This document shows positions 1 to 49,073 of a stretch of DNA of 49,073 bases, one piece after another; within the stretch, counting starts at the first letter, position 1, and every line of letters begins with the position of its first letter. This DNA is from a virus: positions 1 to 49,073 of the IMG/VR virus record IMGVR_UViG_3300044922_000436; one strand, given 5' to 3'. Below the pieces are notes generated by a model. It saw only the letters and a program-made list of their open reading frames with translations, searched no databases and was not told where the DNA came from. A program made the position numbers and the translations under genes.

Positions 1-57
1 TATCAATGTCTCAATTCAAGAAGGCGGCTCATCGACGCTTAACGGCTGCGAGATTTA
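1..57. repeat. Terminal overlap, copy 1 (circle junction)
   Basis: Bases 1-57 are identical to bases 49017-49073. Joining the copies keeps the reading frame of the tail gene that runs off the right edge and re-enters on the left. This indicates a circular or circularly permuted genome written with a short overlap. Inference: most likely an assembly overlap rather than a true phage terminal repeat, because it lies inside a coding region. Confidence 0.95.
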
Positions 58-856
58 TTATGACAAGCTCGCGCTGTTTACTGAGCAATCAACGCAGATG
101 TGGGCTGTCGTTTCTGACCCTAAGCAGAATGCGTTAGGCCAGGTGCTAAGACAGACAGGGACGAAAGCCCCTTGGTCTGTGCAGCAATATGGCTCAGGCG
201 ATATTCTCTTTTTAGCGTCTTCCGGCATTCGCTCGATGAAGGCGAGAGATATTTCGAACTCTGCAGCTGTGTCTGACATTGGCTCTCCGATTGATGATTT
301 AGTCAGAAGCATCCCAGAGAATGACCGCGTTTATTGTCGCTCAGTGCTGGAGCCAATTGTCGGGCGCGTCTGGTTCGCTTTCCGCAGGAATATCTTTCTG
401 CTCTCATTCTTCCCAGGCCCTAACATCACTGCTTGGTCAAATTTCAAAGTGGACTTTGACATTGAATATATTGTCGCATGCGGCGACAGGCTCTTTGTTC
501 GCTCTGGCAATGACCTTTATCTCTATGGCGGCGTGACGGGCGAAGAATACGACACATGCCAAGTTGAGGTGCGGCTTCCTTTCCTAGACGGCTCAAAGCC
601 TGGTCACATGAAGATGTTTCAAGCCATTGACGCAACAGTCACTGGCACATGGCAGATTAAGATGGCCTATGACTTCGACAACCCTGATGCTGAGGAAGAT
701 GTCGCAACGGTCACAGCGCCAACATGGAATAAAGGACGCTATGAGCTGACAGGCTTTGCGTCGCATATGTCATTGAGGTTCTACAACAATACTGCAGAGC
801 CAGCTGTCGTCAGTAATGCAGCGATTCACTACAACATGGCTCAAGACAGTGACTAA
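1..856 (+). CDS. Tail nozzle-like protein, C-terminal part (continues from 47857-49073)
   Basis: This is the 3' part of a gene that starts at 47857 and crosses the circle junction; codons here begin at base 2. After removal of the 57-base overlap the whole gene encodes 671 residues. The C-terminal part is rich in beta-type, aromatic segments (for example MWAVVSDPKQ and DRVYCRSVLEP). Such segments resemble the tail nozzle/stabilisation proteins of podoviruses (T7 gp12 or P22 gp10 type), which extend the tail tube below the head-tail adaptor. The family call rests on gene order and overall character rather than on one decisive motif. Its stop overlaps the start of the acetyltransferase gene. 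Confidence 0.65.
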   Translation, partial: INVSIQEGGSSTLNGCEIYYDKLALFTEQSTQMWAVVSDPKQNALGQVLRQTGTKAPWSVQQYGSGDILFLASSGIRSMKARDISNSAAVSDIGSPIDDLVRSIPENDRVYCRSVLEPIVGRVWFAFRRNIFLLSFFPGPNITAWSNFKVDFDIEYIVACGDRLFVRSGNDLYLYGGVTGEEYDTCQVEVRLPFLDGSKPGHMKMFQAIDATVTGTWQIKMAYDFDNPDAEEDVATVTAPTWNKGRYELTGFASHMSLRFYNNTAEPAVVSNAAIHYNMAQDSD

Positions 857-7825: not shown

Positions 7826-8664
7826 GCCAGAAAGAGTTCTTCGACGACATTAGACGCACAGTATTTGGCGGCTCAATGACAGCTGCTCAAGTTGCTGGTG
7901 TTACGAAGATTATTGAATATCGAGACACGCAATATCGCGGAGTCACGAATAATCAATTGGCTTATATCCTTGCGACAGCATTCCATGAGACCGCTAGAAA
8001 ATGCGCGCCATGCACTGAATATGGCTCTGCAGCTTATCTTAAATCGAAAAAGTATTTTCCTTATGTTGGCCGTGGCTTGGTGCAATTAACCTGGAAGGCG
8101 AACTATGAGCGATATGGAATTTCTAATCCTTCTGATGCTCTCACCTGGCCTACTGCCCTTCATGTTTGCTTCGACGGAATGGTGACAGGTAAATTCACAG
8201 GGAAGAAGCTCAGTGATTACATCTCTGGCTCAAGTGTTGATTACATTGGTGCTCGTCGCATTATTAACGGCACTGATAGGGCGTCACTTGTAGCAGGATA
8301 CGCAAAATCATTTCAAAGCGCATTGAAACTCTGGCAGCCCTCAGCAAAGCCAGTTGTGCGTCAGCAAAAAGAAAAAGGTTTCTTTGATAGCATTGGTGAT
8401 TTCTTTGGCCTTGGCGGCGAAGAAGAGGCAGCAACAAATGCTGCGCCAATGCCGCCGCCAGTTCCAGCAGTTTTGACAGGTGAAAAAGGATACATTTTAG
8501 CTGCAATTACAGCTGCTGTTGGCGCATTGGAATTGGTGCCATGGCAAGATGTCGTCGCCCACCCCGACACTGGCATGAGCCTTGTCATCACGGCGGTAGG
8601 AACTGCCGTGGCTCGGGCCGTCCTGCCTAAATGGATACAGTTTTTTGTGTTGAGGGGCGCATGA
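7822..8664 (+). CDS. GH19-like endolysin with hydrophobic C-terminus
   Basis: A 280-residue predicted muramidase/chitinase-fold endolysin. The N-terminal domain shows ATAFHETARK (candidate catalytic Glu56), then KKYFPYVGRGLVQLTW (about 76-91), the hallmark of GH19-like phage lysozymes. After a short Pro-rich linker, two hydrophobic stretches near residues 217-236 and 250-268 could anchor or export the enzyme, as in membrane-tethered endolysins. There is no classical signal peptide at the N-terminus. It overlaps its neighbours by ATGA. Expected role: degrade the cell wall at lysis. Confidence 0.8.
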   Translation: MSQKEFFDDIRRTVFGGSMTAAQVAGVTKIIEYRDTQYRGVTNNQLAYILATAFHETARKCAPCTEYGSAAYLKSKKYFPYVGRGLVQLTWKANYERYGISNPSDALTWPTALHVCFDGMVTGKFTGKKLSDYISGSSVDYIGARRIINGTDRASLVAGYAKSFQSALKLWQPSAKPVVRQQKEKGFFDSIGDFFGLGGEEEAATNAAPMPPPVPAVLTGEKGYILAAITAAVGALELVPWQDVVAHPDTGMSLVITAVGTAVARAVLPKWIQFFVLRGA

Positions 8665-22847: not shown

Positions 22848-23048
22848 ATGAAGGAATATGCCCTTACTATCAATGAGAAAGACTGCACAGCTCTTTTCCG
22901 CAGCCTGCTCGAATACGACAAAATCTTACGCCTTTCTGCGATTCGTGACAGCGTCTTAGTATCAGCTGAGCTCTACCGCGTCAGGGACCTCCAGGAGCGC
23001 CTCAGCCTCATTCACTGGTATCCCAACAATGAAGAAGACGCAGCATGA
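22848..23048 (+). CDS. Small hypothetical early protein
   Basis: A 66-residue, slightly acidic helical protein (LVSAELYRVRDLQERLSLIHW) with no known motif. It is the first plus-strand early gene, behind GGAGTG, and overlaps the PP-loop gene (stop at 23048, next start 23045). Small first genes of early units often act on host machinery, but nothing in the sequence shows this. Confidence 0.55.
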   Translation: MKEYALTINEKDCTALFRSLLEYDKILRLSAIRDSVLVSAELYRVRDLQERLSLIHWYPNNEEDAA

Positions 23049-23842
23049 TGCGCGTTATCTCTTTGGGCGCTGGCGTCCAATCAACAACCCTCGCTTTAAT
23101 GGCTGCATATGGTGAGATAAGCCCAATGCCAGACTGCGCTATTTTTGCTGATACAGGTTGGGAGCCTGTAGCTGTATATGAGCATTTAAATAGATTACGT
23201 CAGGTATTGCCATTTCCTGTTCATATTGTTTCTGCTGGCAATATTAGAAATGACATTTTAGCTAACGCAAACTCAAATACTAAGCGTTGCGCTGCTATTC
23301 CGTGGTTTACTGAAAACGGCGGGATGGCACTTAGACAATGCACTTCTGAGTATAAAATAACACCTATTCTCAGGAAGCAAAGAGAGTTGCTCGGTTACAA
23401 AAAAGGCCAGCGAATACCCCCAAAGAGTATAGAAGTCTGGATCGGCATTTCGACTGACGAAATTCAACGCATGAAAGAGCCGCGCGATAAATGGCAAACT
23501 CATAGATGGCCGTTAATTGATGCAAGAATGAGCCGTAGAGATTGCATATCGTGGCTCAAATCACACGGCTGGAACGCCCCAAAATCTGCTTGCATAGGCT
23601 GCCCATATCACTCTGATGCGATGTGGCGAGACATGAAGGATAACGACCCTGTTTCGTGGGCAGATGCCATTGAAGTAGATACCGCAATCAGAAATAGGCA
23701 ATCTTCTAGCGGTCTTAAATATAAGCCTTTTATGCACCGGAGCCTCAAGCCATTAAACGAAGTTGACCTGTCAACACCGGTTGACCGCGGGCAAAAAGAG
23801 TTCGGCTTTATGCAAGAATGCGATGGAGTGTGCGGATTATGA
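23045..23842 (+). CDS. PP-loop ATPase, PAPS-reductase/DndC-like
   Basis: A 265-residue protein with VISLGAGVQSTTLALM at the N-terminus, a PP-loop nucleotide-binding site. IFADTGWEPVAVYEHL and a Cys-containing C-terminal part (SACIGCPYHSDAMW) follow. This is the phage version of the adenine nucleotide alpha-hydrolase family that includes PAPS reductase and DndC. Additional Cys residues (KRCAAIPW, LRQCTSEYK) could bind an Fe-S cluster. It might take part in sulfur or nucleobase modification of DNA or tRNA; the reaction cannot be told from sequence. Start at 23045 or 23048. Confidence 0.75.
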   Translation: MMRVISLGAGVQSTTLALMAAYGEISPMPDCAIFADTGWEPVAVYEHLNRLRQVLPFPVHIVSAGNIRNDILANANSNTKRCAAIPWFTENGGMALRQCTSEYKITPILRKQRELLGYKKGQRIPPKSIEVWIGISTDEIQRMKEPRDKWQTHRWPLIDARMSRRDCISWLKSHGWNAPKSACIGCPYHSDAMWRDMKDNDPVSWADAIEVDTAIRNRQSSSGLKYKPFMHRSLKPLNEVDLSTPVDRGQKEFGFMQECDGVCGL

Positions 23843-24168: not shown

Positions 24169-27100
24169 ATGAACATACTAACATTCGACCTTGAGACATC
24201 AGGGTCAAAGCCAGAGTTTGCACTTCAATCATGGCGTGCGCCACACGACGCCCACATCACATCGCTTGTGTGGATGCACAACGGCACAACGCATGGCGGC
24301 CTTAATCCGACTAAAGATGATTTCATAAATATGCTCATCTATGCACAAGAGAACGACTGCACGATTGCAGGATGGAATGTGCAATTCGATGTTCAATGGC
24401 TCATTGCGTATGGACTTGAAGATGAAGTTTTCAAATGCAAATTCATTGATGGAATGCTGCTTTGGCGTCATCTCACTATTGAGCCAGAATATGAAGCAAC
24501 AGGCTCACGCAAGAAGTCATATGGCCTTAAGGCAGCGGTTGCTGAGTTCTTACCAGCATTTAGTGATTACGAATTAGACATCGACTTCCACGACCCATCG
24601 CCAGAAGCACGCGCTAAGCTACATGAATACAATATTAGCGATGTTAAATTCACTGAGCATCTCACGCTTAAATTCTACAATGAATTATCGAAGAAACAGC
24701 AAACAGCTGCACGCATTGAAGCCGAGTGCATTCCTCTCATAGCTGCTGCTAACTATCACGGCATGGTCGTTGATGTTCCTGCAGTCGAAGCGCTTTGCGC
24801 TAAGCTAGAACAAACTGCAGAACAAAAACTCGCAGAGCTCGCGCCTTATGGCGTCACAGAAGAAATCATTCGCTCACCTGCAAAGCTCTCTAAGCTCCTG
24901 TTCGATGATTGGGGCCTACCACCACAAGGAACAACAGACACAGGCGCACGTTCAACAGATAAGTCAGCACTCCATGAGCTCTCGCTCATTGACCCAAAAG
25001 CTAAAACGCTCAGGGAATATCGTGAAGCCCTCAACAATAAAACAAAGTTCGCGCAAACAATTCTTGAGAGCGCTGCATATAACGGCAACTCAACCACACA
25101 CCCTCAAGCAATTATATTCGGCACATATTCGGGCCGTCTTACATACGCGTCTAATCAAGGCCGTGGCAAAGAACTTAGACAGACAGGCTTTGCAATCCAT
25201 CAGATGAAACGCGGTGCTGAATATCGCGCTGCAATTAAAGCGCCTGATGGATTTACGATATTAGAATTTGACGCCGCAGGTCAGGAGCTGCGCTGGTTTG
25301 CCTGCGCCTCTAAAGACCCAACAATGCTCAAGCTCTGCATGCCTGGGCAAGACCCTCACGCTTACATGGCAAAACAAATTGGGCCTGATGTTGAGCGACA
25401 AATGGGCAAATTGTCTAACTTATCCTTACAGTATCGGACCTCTGCAAAGAAATTGCAGCAAGTCGCGCGCGTTCAATACAACATCCCTATGACGCTCAAG
25501 GAAGCTGAGCACATCCATGCAACATATCAAGACGCCTACTCTCAAGTGCCAGTATTCTGGAAATCACAAATTGCTAAGGTCAAGCACGCCAAATATGTTG
25601 AGACTTACGCTGGTCGACGTGTCAGCGTCGATGGTGATTGGAGTGGCAATCACGCATGGTCTATGGGCAGCACTGCCATCAACTATCGCATTCAAGGCAC
25701 AGGCGCAGACCAGAAATACCTCGCACTCGCAGTCATCAAGCCATATCTCAGACAGATAGGAGCACGCTTCGCATGGGACTTACATGACGGCATTTATCTT
25801 TATGTGCCTGATGACAAAGTCCAAGAGGCTGCAGAACAAATCAAATTATCGCTCGATAATCTTCCTTATAAATCAGCATGGGGCTTTGAGCCTCCAATCC
25901 CTCTCCCTTGGGATTGTAAGTCAGGCAAGTCATGGGGTGAATTAAAGGAATATAAATTTAACGAGGCTGACACCCCCGACCAAGAAGGTGCCAGCCTCTC
26001 AATCGCCCCTACTCTGCAGCCCGATGGAGTTCAAGGCCGTGAGCGCCTGGGTGATTTATCTACCTCAAATAAAGCATCACCCCAGCTAGTTCAAGTTGAC
26101 TTCCGTCCACAGCGCGAAGCTGCGCTCGAAGTCGCCCTTCAGTTTGCCAGTGCAGGGATTAAGACTTTCCCCTGCCAGGCAGACAAGAAGCCAGCCCCTG
26201 GCTTTATGAATTGGGAGAATGCTGCATCATCTGACCCTGACCAGCTGCGCCAATGGTTCCTCACAGACTACAGGGACACAGCTGCAATGGTCGGCATGCC
26301 TTGTGGCCCCAATAATCTCGTCGCAATCGACCCTGACAGACCAAAGCCTGAGAAGGGGAAGACAGCTGATGGCCTGGTCTTATTCAAGAACCTCGTCCAT
26401 GAGCTCAGCATCGACCTCACAGGCGTCCCAATCATTAAATCGCCATCTGGTGGTCAGCACTATATTTTCTCACAACCACAAGATGCACGCTTTGGCTGCG
26501 CCACTGGCTCACTTCCTGATAATGTCGATGTCAAAGGGGATGGTGGCTACCTCATAGCATCAGGCTCACGCAGAGCTGATGGCCTCGCCTATGAGCAAAT
26601 GCCTGGCACGCCATCACTCATTGAGTCATTCAAAACAAACACAATCCCAGCAATGCCGCTCCAGCTCAGGACAATCATCGGCACACGCAAAGAGCGCCTA
26701 TCAGCCCCTAACAATGAGACAGAACGCCTCGATTGGCATCTCTTAGCAGAAGCCCTCAGCCCTCAGAATATTCCTAACGATGCTACATTTGATTCACGCG
26801 ATGAATGGGTCTCAATGGCGCATGCGATTTATGGAGCATCATCAGGACAGGATTGGGGCCGTAAGGAATGGCTCGCATGGAATGCCAGACGCCAGCAGTC
26901 GCCCAATGAGCCAGAACGCGTATGGGACACGATTAAACCAGCAGAAGTCAGAGCTGGCTCAGGATACATCAAGGCGCAGCTCTTCACGCGCAATCGCACT
27001 GAGCTCCTAGAACGCATCGCAAATGCTGAAGCTGGCAATCTCTTCACCAAGGTCGTCGGAGATGAGGGTCAGAGTGATAGCCCAAAGCTCGATGATTTAA

Positions 27101-28209
27101 TTAAAGGCCCTAGCCCATTCAAACGCATTAACGCTTGGGATATGCCTCCTAGACAATTTGTCTATAAGAAGCATTACATCAGGAAGTTCATCTCAGCATC
27201 CATCGCGCCTGGAGGCGTTGGCAAATCAACAGTCGCAATTGCTGAAGCTGTCGCAATGGCCACAGGTAAGGACATCCTTGGTCATGCAGTCACTGAGCCT
27301 CTCAAGGTCTGGTATTGGAATGGCGAAGACCCATTCGATGAGCTGCAGCGCAGGTTCCTTGCTGTTATCCAGCATTTTAACCTGACCAATGAGGACATCG
27401 AGCTCCTTGAGGAAAACCTGTTCTTCGACTCAGGGCGTAATCTTGAAATCAAGATAGCCTTCCAAGAGAAGAACGGCACCAAAATAGCAGCGCCTGTCGC
27501 TAACAAGCTCAAGCAGTGGATTGAGGAGAATGAGATTGATGTCGTCATCATCGACCCATTCGTCAGCAGCCACTCAGTCTCTGAGAATGACAATAATGCA
27601 ATCGATGTCGTCGCTAAGGCATGGGCTAAGATTGCAGATGTCACCAATTGCGCAATCGACCTTGTCCACCACGTCAGAAAGACGAATGGCCAAGAGGCCA
27701 CAGTCGAGGATGCACGCGGCGCTTCTGCCCTCCTAGCAGCAGTCAGGTCAGCACGCGTCTTTAATGCTATGAGCGCTGATGAAGCCGCACGCTCAGGCGT
27801 CCATAACCAAAAGCTCTATTTCAAAGAGGACAATGGTAAGGCCAACCTAGCACCAGCAGCTGCAGCAGGATGGTATAAGATTAGCGGCGTTGACCTGCCA
27901 AATGGCGATAGCGTCGCAACTGTCAATGTCTGGCAGTGGCCAAACATCCACGACCAGGTCACAGATGAGGACCTGGTCGAAATTCAGAGACGCTGCAAAG
28001 CTGATGAGCCAAGCGAAAGCAGCCAAGCAGCTGATTGGGTCGGACATGTCGTAGCAGATGTCATGGGGCTCAATGCAGGTGACAAATCGGACAAAGCACG
28101 CATCAAAGAGCTTCTGAAGGTATGGCTGAAGGAAGGAAATTTATGCGTGAAAACGGCATGGAATGCTCGCCAAGGGAAGCCAAAAAAGGTTATAAGCAGT
28201 CATACGTAA
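24169..28209 (+). CDS. Fused replicase: 3'-5' exonuclease + family A DNA polymerase + PrimPol + RecA-fold helicase
   Basis: A 1346-residue single chain. Exonuclease (about 1-175): FDLET (Asp7, Glu9), WNVQFD (Asp74), YNISD (Tyr154, Asp158), DEDDy type. Family A polymerase (about 180-595): motif A DAAGQELR (Asp368), O-helix RQMGKLSNLSLQY with Arg410, Lys414, Leu418 (E. coli Phe762 position) and Tyr422, motif C LHDG (His539, Asp540, normally HDE). Linker about 596-645. PrimPol (about 646-830): DPD (Asp721/Asp723), SPSGGQHY (His764), VDVKGDGGY (Asp787). PriCT-like domain about 853-940. Helicase (about 985-1260): Walker A APGGVGKST (Lys1019), Walker B VVIIDP (Asp1129), HHVRKT. Priming, unwinding and synthesis are joined in one polypeptide. 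Confidence 0.93.
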   Translation: MNILTFDLETSGSKPEFALQSWRAPHDAHITSLVWMHNGTTHGGLNPTKDDFINMLIYAQENDCTIAGWNVQFDVQWLIAYGLEDEVFKCKFIDGMLLWRHLTIEPEYEATGSRKKSYGLKAAVAEFLPAFSDYELDIDFHDPSPEARAKLHEYNISDVKFTEHLTLKFYNELSKKQQTAARIEAECIPLIAAANYHGMVVDVPAVEALCAKLEQTAEQKLAELAPYGVTEEIIRSPAKLSKLLFDDWGLPPQGTTDTGARSTDKSALHELSLIDPKAKTLREYREALNNKTKFAQTILESAAYNGNSTTHPQAIIFGTYSGRLTYASNQGRGKELRQTGFAIHQMKRGAEYRAAIKAPDGFTILEFDAAGQELRWFACASKDPTMLKLCMPGQDPHAYMAKQIGPDVERQMGKLSNLSLQYRTSAKKLQQVARVQYNIPMTLKEAEHIHATYQDAYSQVPVFWKSQIAKVKHAKYVETYAGRRVSVDGDWSGNHAWSMGSTAINYRIQGTGADQKYLALAVIKPYLRQIGARFAWDLHDGIYLYVPDDKVQEAAEQIKLSLDNLPYKSAWGFEPPIPLPWDCKSGKSWGELKEYKFNEADTPDQEGASLSIAPTLQPDGVQGRERLGDLSTSNKASPQLVQVDFRPQREAALEVALQFASAGIKTFPCQADKKPAPGFMNWENAASSDPDQLRQWFLTDYRDTAAMVGMPCGPNNLVAIDPDRPKPEKGKTADGLVLFKNLVHELSIDLTGVPIIKSPSGGQHYIFSQPQDARFGCATGSLPDNVDVKGDGGYLIASGSRRADGLAYEQMPGTPSLIESFKTNTIPAMPLQLRTIIGTRKERLSAPNNETERLDWHLLAEALSPQNIPNDATFDSRDEWVSMAHAIYGASSGQDWGRKEWLAWNARRQQSPNEPERVWDTIKPAEVRAGSGYIKAQLFTRNRTELLERIANAEAGNLFTKVVGDEGQSDSPKLDDLIKGPSPFKRINAWDMPPRQFVYKKHYIRKFISASIAPGGVGKSTVAIAEAVAMATGKDILGHAVTEPLKVWYWNGEDPFDELQRRFLAVIQHFNLTNEDIELLEENLFFDSGRNLEIKIAFQEKNGTKIAAPVANKLKQWIEENEIDVVIIDPFVSSHSVSENDNNAIDVVAKAWAKIADVTNCAIDLVHHVRKTNGQEATVEDARGASALLAAVRSARVFNAMSADEAARSGVHNQKLYFKEDNGKANLAPAAAAGWYKISGVDLPNGDSVATVNVWQWPNIHDQVTDEDLVEIQRRCKADEPSESSQAADWVGHVVADVMGLNAGDKSDKARIKELLKVWLKEGNLCVKTAWNARQGKPKKVISSHT

Positions 28210-28215
28210 GTCATT

Positions 28216-28318
28216 GATCCTCACTTCCTCACTTCAGGTGAGGTGAAGTGAGGATCTAACCTCCTCACCTCACCTTATATAGGTGAGGAGGTAGGTGAGG
28301 TGAGAACTCAAGGTGAGG
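28216..28318. repeat. GGTGAGG/CCTCACC repeat and palindrome cluster, candidate origin or operator
   Basis: Nine copies of GGTGAGG-type heptamers in about 100 bases, on both strands. They form nested hairpins: GATCCTCACTTC (28216-28227) with GAAGTGAGGATC (28245-28256); CCTCCTCACC (28260-28269) with GGTGAGGAGG (28282-28291); CTCACCTCACC (28264-28274) with GGTGAGGTGAG (28294-28304). TATATA lies in the middle loop. It directly follows the replicase stop. Iteron-like origin, replicase binding site or transcription control are possible. Confidence 0.75.
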
Positions 28319-28331
28319 AAAACTGCAGGAA

Positions 28332-28775
28332 ATGGCTAGACCGCAGTGGCGAACGCCAGCGAAGGATTATCCCAAGAGGATGCCTGAGAATTTTTGGATG
28401 CTGGAGCAGCGTCGTGTGAAGATGCACGACCTGTCGCGCATGCCGCAGTGCGTGGCTACAGCGCGAAGCACTGGGCAGCGGTGTCGTTGCGTTCGTGTGC
28501 TTGGGTCAGACTATTGCGTTAAGCATGGCGGCTCTGGACATATCAAGGAACGCATTCAGCGTTTGGGTGGGCCTGTTGTGCGAGCGAAGTCTGTGCCGTC
28601 TCTGAGACACCAAAATCTCAAGAGACGACTAGAGATTGAGACTTACTTGCATGACATGGCGAGTAATGCTCATGTTGAGCATATGTCTAGACAGTTGAGA
28701 ATAGAGCTGGCTTCATTGCCTTTGGGGGCGCGAGCACGAAAATACATGAAATGGCTGGAGGGCAGAAGTGTCTGA
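28332..28775 (+). CDS. Cys/His-motif hypothetical protein (HGG type)
   Basis: A 147-residue basic protein. The motif CVATARSTGQRCRCVRV then YCVKHGG gives Cys40, Cys51, Cys62 and His65. This is a small putative zinc-binding knuckle, common in phage proteins near small terminase genes and ending in HGG. The C-terminal half is helical and basic, suggesting nucleic acid binding. An in-frame ATG at 28380 is an alternative start. It is followed by an 8-base overlap with the possible small terminase, so the two may work together. Confidence 0.6.
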   Translation: MARPQWRTPAKDYPKRMPENFWMLEQRRVKMHDLSRMPQCVATARSTGQRCRCVRVLGSDYCVKHGGSGHIKERIQRLGGPVVRAKSVPSLRHQNLKRRLEIETYLHDMASNAHVEHMSRQLRIELASLPLGARARKYMKWLEGRSV

Positions 28776-47857: not shown

Positions 47858-49073
47858 TGCCTTATTTCTTAGTCGAGAACTTCAAATCTGGCCTTGATGT
47901 CCGCAAGAGCATTTTGACAGCTCCTGCAGGGACTTTGACGCGTTTAATTAATGCGGCGATTACGCCTGGCGGTGAGATTAAGAAGCGCAAAGCATTCAAG
48001 AAGGTCGCAAACCTTACAGGAACATTTGGCCTCGCCGCTCTTGGCACAAAGCTGGTTGCTTTCACGAAGGATGTGCAGACGCCAAATCCTGGCATCAAAG
48101 ACCCTGTATCAGGCGCAACGATTACTGATGTGACGCTTGAATATCATCGTATTCCGAATAAGTCGCCAACATCAGTTATGACTGACTATGATGTGTTCGA
48201 CGGCAAGCTCTATCTTGTCATGTCAGACCCGTCTCCGACGCCTCCAGCCGATGCCGACTCTGGTCCAGCGCTTCCAACGCCTGTGCCTGAGAATGAGCCT
48301 TATCTGCAGACTAAAGACAATTCTATCTATGTCTGGCGTCAGGGCACTTGGAATGAGTGGGCAGCGACAAAGCGCGTAGGCTCTCTTCCTGCGCGTGGCT
48401 ATACTGGCGATTGGTATAAACCCGCAACTGACGGTCAATGGTATAAAATCTCTGGCAGCGATTGGGTAAAGCAGACCTCACAGCCTACATCTTCAGAAAC
48501 ACAAACAACAGGCCCTGCGCTTCCTTCTAATCAGATGGAAGATGTCGTCTATTTTAATTACAACGACAACAAAAACTATGTGACGAAGAATCGGGCCTGG
48601 GTCATTTACACGCCCCCGCACACTGTCGCCACTTTGCCTAAAGGCTACAAGGACGGTGAGGCGTTTAAAAATACGACAGACGGTAAATTCTATAAGTGGC
48701 AAACGAGTAAATGGGTCGTTTGGGCCTCAAGCATAAAAGACAAAAACCCGCATTATTACTTTGATGACCGTGAGAAGGTTAATGACCAATTCACGCAGAA
48801 CCTAGACCTGACATGGGAATGGTCGACTAAGGTCAATCCAAACAAAGACACCTATCAGCCGACCGAAGGTGCTGGGATGGGTTATTTTGTTAGGGCCTAT
48901 AAGTCGAAGCTCTACTGTGTTGGAGACAAATATCTACGCTTTTCAGCAGTTAATAATGGCTTTCTCTGGGAAGCAGCGAGTGACACGAACGACAATAGTC
49001 GAGATGGCGCTGGCAATATCAATGTCTCAATTCAAGAAGGCGGCTCATCGACGCTTAACGGCTGCGAGATTTA
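47857..49073 (+). CDS. Tail nozzle-like protein, N-terminal part (continues at base 58)
   Basis: Starts at ATG 47857 and runs off the window; after the 57-base overlap it continues to 856, giving 671 residues in one frame. The N-terminus YFLVENFKSGLDVRKSILT with GGEIKKRKAFKKVANL is typical of podovirus nozzle/stabilisation proteins. Residues about 128-290 hold Trp/Tyr-rich modules (SIYVWRQGTWNEW, GQWYKISGSDWVK, GKFYKWQTSKWVVW) resembling small carbohydrate-binding repeats, likely inserted at the tail tip. Confidence 0.7.
   Translation, partial: MPYFLVENFKSGLDVRKSILTAPAGTLTRLINAAITPGGEIKKRKAFKKVANLTGTFGLAALGTKLVAFTKDVQTPNPGIKDPVSGATITDVTLEYHRIPNKSPTSVMTDYDVFDGKLYLVMSDPSPTPPADADSGPALPTPVPENEPYLQTKDNSIYVWRQGTWNEWAATKRVGSLPARGYTGDWYKPATDGQWYKISGSDWVKQTSQPTSSETQTTGPALPSNQMEDVVYFNYNDNKNYVTKNRAWVIYTPPHTVATLPKGYKDGEAFKNTTDGKFYKWQTSKWVVWASSIKDKNPHYYFDDREKVNDQFTQNLDLTWEWSTKVNPNKDTYQPTEGAGMGYFVRAYKSKLYCVGDKYLRFSAVNNGFLWEAASDTNDNSRDGAGNINVSIQEGGSSTLNGCEI
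49017..49073. repeat. Terminal overlap, copy 2 (circle junction)
   Basis: Identical to bases 1-57. Together the copies mark the arbitrary opening point of the circle; see the nozzle-like gene. Confidence 0.95.

Follow-up and report, generated by a model that had tools for sequence, protein, structure and literature searches.

A 9-bp iteron array behind a phage replicase gene as a likely replicator and predicted target of the winged-helix tail of the helicase

The viral record IMGVR_UViG_3300044922_000436, analysed over its whole length of 49,073 nucleotides (the window), carries a dense cluster of short repeats directly behind the gene of a multidomain replicase. We consider it highly likely that this array is a phage replicator of 9-bp iterons, and that the helicase whose gene directly precedes it binds it through a C-terminal winged helix. 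Comparison with related loci indicates that the cluster is almost certainly a docking site for the DNA-reading helicase tail, and it is probably also the start point of replication, which follows less directly than the binding does. The first 58 bases of the window (1-58) recur identically at its end (49016-49073), and the record therefore probably represents a whole genome of ~49,015 bp that is circular or has redundant ends.

The repeat array and the replicase

The array occupies positions 28216-28318, as the first-pass annotation had located it, and starts 7 nt behind the replicase gene. Counted as the hexamer GTGAGG (CCTCAC on the other strand), nine copies were found, at 28219 (-), 28227 (-), 28238 (+), 28248 (+), 28263 (-), 28268 (-), 28283 (+), 28295 (+), and 28313 (+), in the order < < > > < < [TTATATA] > > >. 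The nine copies had been described as heptamers; that number holds for the hexamer, whereas exact GGTGAGG occurs six times in the array (four on the + strand, two on the - strand) and nine times across the entire window. Nowhere else in the record are short repeats so dense: no other hexamer in the window reaches nine copies per 120 bp, and 60 first-order Markov sequences of equal length gave at most five hexamer copies per 120 bp. The iteron 8-mer is confined to the array, which holds all six of its genome copies.

Three inverted repeats with 12/12 matching arms were identified: a left one built of iterons (28216-28256, arms 28216-28227/28245-28256), a central palindrome around CACCTTATAT (28259-28292, arms 28259-28270/28281-28292), and an alternative one (28264-28304, arms 28264-28275/28293-28304). 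The earlier description of three perfect inverted repeats nested round TATATA thus stands for their number and perfection, but they are alternative pairings among neighbouring iterons and only the last two enclose TATATA. Both DNA strands were predicted to fold much more stably than shuffles (z -6.3 and -7.1). Among phage records, none with DNA closely related to the repeat region was found, and an exact 17-mer of the array, searched in IMG/VR, gave a single match in an unrelated place.

The replicase gene (24169-28209, + strand) encodes 1346 aa, in which Pfam, structure models, and motifs read by eye distinguish an exonuclease-like N-terminus, a PolA polymerase, a PrimPol, a RepA/AAA_25 SF4 helicase, and a winged helix. 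The N-terminal exonuclease motifs, FDLETSG, GWNVQFDVQWL, and YNISDVKFT, were read by eye. Pfam placed DNA_pol_A at residues 215-591 (E 6.6e-44), where Klenow/Taq matches were also obtained, Prim-Pol at residues 656-813 (E 3.4e-24), and AAA_25 at residues 983-1173 (E 1.7e-40), the last being a RecA-type helicase core (27115-27687, + strand). A structure model of residues 942-1346 (pLDDT 93) showed the RecA core followed by a separate C-terminal domain, and the best PDB match of the core was RSF1010 RepA (1nlf, TM 0.81 on target length), ahead of DnaB/RecA-like chains.

The C-terminal domain, at about residues 1263-1346 (27955-28206, + strand), is the predicted reader of the array. It was modelled as three helices with a beta-hairpin wing, and winged-helix proteins were among its structural matches. 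Foldseek with the isolated domain gave no confident PDB match (best E 0.05), a second structural look gave Z under 7 (RecQ/BLM, PadR, MarR, FtsK gamma), and no Pfam model fitted the tail convincingly. Because these structural scores are weak to middling, we claim only "winged helix" for the tail.

Only one full-length relative with the complete five-part architecture was found in IMG/VR (locus L003). In the window, a phosphoadenosine phosphosulfate reductase-like gene (phrog_424, 23045-23842) lies just upstream of the replicase, and the first rightward gene behind the array (28332-28775, + strand) encodes a small basic protein with a CxxxHGGSG motif. L003 has a similar small protein downstream (about 7950-8400), and a protein annotated HGGxSTG on a Microvirga plasmid (NZ_CP141051, 24330-24605) also resembles it.

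Arrays beside related helicase genes

Homologues of the helicase half, standalone or fused to a primase, were found in alphaproteobacterial plasmids, prophages, and viral contigs. Four plasmids, L003, and the locus L007 have a repeat cluster directly behind the gene, with a different motif in each. For a systematic test, 142 non-redundant helicase loci were searched, over the 220 nt that follow the helicase stop, for an 8-mer present three or more times. Such an array was present in 114 of them (80%), compared with 79 of 4180 control windows (1.9%) and 1.1% of shuffled sequences, and at 103 of the 142 loci the array region outscored every control window of the same locus. The median distance from the helicase stop to the first iteron was 6 nt.

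The loci have the motif form RSTGNNGCA in common, with most variation at positions 5-6; the window motif is GGTGAGGAR. The layout <..>>..<..> was seen in 42 of 103 arrays, against 7.6 expected under orientation shuffling, and a perfect inverted repeat of at least 8 bp in 85 of 102 arrays, against 2 in shuffles. Frequently, a single reversed copy lies within a few nt of the stop, two or three tandem copies spaced 8-11 nt follow, and then come at least one reversed copy, a palindrome whose centre is TATA-, TTTA- or GTA-like, and more forward copies. Conservation of the repeats in relatives, which the first-pass annotation had proposed as a check, thus extends to position and layout, but the repeat sequence itself changes.

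The arrangement is not universal. In the Rhizobiaceae/Brucella clade (L084, L089, L150, L153, L155, L158, L159, L164, L168, and L174) no array was found near the helicase, despite the same helicase and tail, and a search of the whole L084 record found none anywhere. At L071, L151, L162, and L163, a cluster with the family's type of motif lies at a greater distance behind the gene, as far as about 1.4 kb. The Microcystis phage Mae-Yong1326-1 (L016) has an array of ACTGGCGCA at about 140-330 nt past the stop codon of the helicase gene, and given this cyanophage the helicase-array arrangement may reach past Alphaproteobacteria. The contig L396 (IMGVR_UViG_3300047529_000004) has a tandem repeat of 27-bp period at its start (2-288).

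L003 and the window are 63% identical in PolA and 57% in PrimPol, but only 32% in the helicase and 19% in the tail, and the array motif of L003 differs, suggesting that the array goes with the helicase and not with the polymerase. A scan with the divergent L003 helicase matched its own contig alone, so the arrangement was not extended to that helicase branch.

Co-variation between the helicase tail and the iterons

To relate the protein to its repeats, a co-variation table of 103 loci and 358 columns was made, with six odd motif calls excluded and four motifs, the window's included, set by hand. The results showed that motif distance followed C-terminal distance when ATPase distance was given (partial Mantel r 0.26, p<0.001), and did not follow ATPase distance when the C-terminus was given (r -0.001). 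Co-variation peaked between residue 1286 and motif positions 1-2, between 1334/1337 and positions 5-6, and between 1336 and positions 8-9. Q1286 goes with GG in 82 of 86 loci, R1286 with AC in 13 of 14, and R1336 with CA in 75 of 77; residues other than R at 1336 go mostly with AA/GT/AG, K1334 with G, E1337 with C, and M1337 often with T. In the model, residues 1334-1337 sit at the tip of the wing, and 1286 belongs to the loop preceding the second helix.

In the window, the codon of Q1286 (28024-28026, + strand) is predicted to specify positions 1-2, and the wing codons R1334, Q1335, G1336, and K1337 (28168-28179, + strand) include those predicted to specify positions 5-6 (1334/1337) and 8-9 (1336). 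With GGTGAGGA as its iteron, the window fits the code at 1286, 1334, and 1336, and it is the sole K1337 locus with A at motif position 5.

The links were also seen in 46 disjoint pairs of nearest relatives, in which no locus was reused. The 1286 link (p 7e-8) and the 1336 link (p 1e-7) were each the best of 358 columns, and for motif position 6 residues 1337 and 1334 ranked first (p about 5e-4), while motif position 5 had no significant link with residue 1337 in the 46 pairs. In 55 held-out loci, the code was correct more often than the nearest relative at positions 1-2 (42 versus 27), 5-6 (26 versus 11), and 8-9 (48 versus 41), and it was also better than a majority rule; Fisher tests on this set gave p 5e-9 and 2e-6. 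These scores are probably lowered by motif calls kept in the held-out set that look mis-registered (TCTCCACCT, TTTGCCGTG, and CCTCCGCAA).

These results are good evidence, at the level of sequence, and strongly suggest that the helicase tail reads the array across the family. For the window itself, we infer the same reading from family membership and residue fit. The first-pass annotation had proposed a replicase-bound site, and the co-variation over 103 loci with the held-out set strongly supports it; the PrimPol-helicase portion that had been named as the binder belongs to the same chain, but the predicted reader is the C-terminal winged helix (about 1263-1346) and not the PrimPol or the helicase core.

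Origin function, other readings, and known systems

Binding alone would also suit an operator, in which the tail binds the array solely for transcription control, either of the genes behind it or of the tail's own operon, and replication starts elsewhere. Any binding would yield equal co-variation, and the array ends 13 nt ahead of the next ORF, with late genes beyond. We nevertheless regard this reading as improbable, because the array sits behind the gene and not at the operon start, the window has no further copy of the 8-mer, not even on the upstream side of the operon, and the downstream genes vary across relatives while the array stays by the helicase. Operators do not usually take the form of long multi-copy arrays that contain a hairpin. 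Much less likely still is that the palindromes end the replicase operon as a transcription terminator or an RNA element: RNA-strand hairpins directly after the stop codon are strong (z -4.9), but the + strand has neither a T-run nor a terminator call here, no Rfam family was matched in the array region, and RNA structure leaves the tandem direct copies (8-11 nt spacing) and the protein co-variation unexplained.

Repeat arrays mark packaging (pac/cos) and partition sites too, and many of the relatives are phages or phage-plasmids. However, the large terminase gene of the window is 12 kb off, the array adjoins the helicase in most loci, and its specificity follows the helicase tail, for which a terminase or ParB would not account, so a site of this kind is very unlikely. 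That the array is low complexity, or that the co-variation reflects shared ancestry, is the least likely explanation of all. The motifs are G-rich and sequences on a tree share changes, but control windows and shuffles did not produce comparable clusters, and the signal, which peaks in the C-terminal domain, persists both among nearest pairs with no shared locus and in the held-out set. Moreover, in several pairs with 77-91% identical ATPases the motif and the code residues differ together.

For the preferred reading of the array as a replicator, we propose that several replicase copies would dock on the array by their tails, and base recognition would fall to the wing and residue 1286. The ring helicase, of RepA-like type, would then load itself at the central hairpin/TATATA, where the DNA would open, and the primase and polymerase of the same chain would begin synthesis. 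Origin function is suggested by analogy: in the systems already known, a C-terminal reader belongs to a replication initiator, and the iterons downstream of it to an origin (PMC7581432, PMC6092414). Tail binding could serve regulation as well.

GC skew near 28.2 kb had been put forward as a check. The detrended minimum of the window, at 27867, agrees with it, but relatives in general do not: in 17 replicons the minimum was weakly closer to the array than random (p 0.05), and over 111 loci there was a slight step in the opposite direction at the array. We therefore rejected GC skew as general support for the origin; it holds for the window only, and counts for little because it is absent in relatives generally. 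Some module-bearing plasmids also have repB/repC genes and may thus possess an origin besides the array. The Microvirga plasmid NZ_CP141051.1 (L178) carries repB/repC genes together with a primase-helicase-array module; one replicon may serve maintenance and the other lytic growth.

More tentatively, and with slightly more doubt than belief, one chain might combine a near-whole replisome (proofreading polymerase, primer synthesis, and helicase) with a code-like origin reader whose origin sequence is set by a few winged-helix residues, the tail and array spreading and diversifying together as a swappable specificity module that gives many orthogonal origins across alphaproteobacterial phages. 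In the literature searched, no described origin was found for this alphaproteobacterial phage/phage-plasmid group, a large one for which a concrete initiation mechanism is proposed here, and the residue-to-base table can serve to find origins in phage genomes that lack annotation.

Initiator helicases of this fused kind, followed by iterons, have precedents on other helicase types in SaPI Rep, SCC Cch2, and P4 alpha. In SaPI Rep and SCCmec Cch/Cch2, the C-terminal domain of the helicase recognises short iterons directly downstream of the gene, a self-loading model has been put forward, and for SaPI/PICI origin function has been demonstrated (PMC7581432, PMC6092414). Like these proteins and P4 alpha, the window replicase joins a helicase and a predicted dsDNA-binding C-terminal domain in one chain, iterons lie directly 3' of the helicase gene (in the window and about 80% of the 142 relatives), and the C-terminal domain appears to set iteron specificity, judging from co-variation and held-out prediction. 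The helicases of SaPI Rep and Cch/Cch2 are of the DUF927 and D5/Primase_Cterm types, whereas that of the window is of the RepA/AAA_25 RecA type; in PICI origins two iteron sets flank an AT-rich stretch, whereas those of the window stand on either side of a palindrome whose centre is short and TATA-like. We found no residue-level code reported for the SaPI/SCC/PICI readers.

The P4 alpha helicase belongs to superfamily SF3. P4 alpha has a primase, a helicase, and a winged-helix origin reader in one chain and an origin with repeats (PMC4234260). The window replicase likewise fuses primase, helicase, and winged helix and has a repeat array, but P4 has a TOPRIM primase, a helicase of another superfamily, and no PolA. 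In proteins of the pRN1 ORF904 and Bordetella phage BPP-1 type, PrimPol, helicase, and winged helix also share one chain, and in pRN1 a stem-loop region directly behind the replication gene is essential; the helicase there is SF3, iterons are absent, and specific binding could not be detected (PMC4234260). The window resembles pRN1 in having PrimPol and winged helix in the chain and a stem-loop just downstream of the gene, and differs in its RepA/SF4 helicase and iterons. A reader that co-varies with iterons, as in the window family, has counterparts in PLE RepA_N and geminivirus Rep, whose folds are unrelated to the window's protein. In these RepA_N/ori and Rep/iteron pairs, the DNA-binding part of the initiator co-varies with or matches the iterons (PMC8263062, PMC12548392).

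No RepA-type helicase with its own iteron-reading tail was found described in the literature searched, which mostly left out subscription papers. The window resembles the IncQ plasmid RSF1010 in its RepA-type helicase fold (1nlf) and in its iterons and hairpins, and the plasmid homologues bear the RepA-family name. RSF1010 uses a separate RepC for the iterons and RepB' for priming, whereas in the window the predicted reader and the primase are fused to the helicase. Iteron reading would thus be joined here to a RepA-type replicative helicase, whose RSF1010 counterpart requires a separate initiator.
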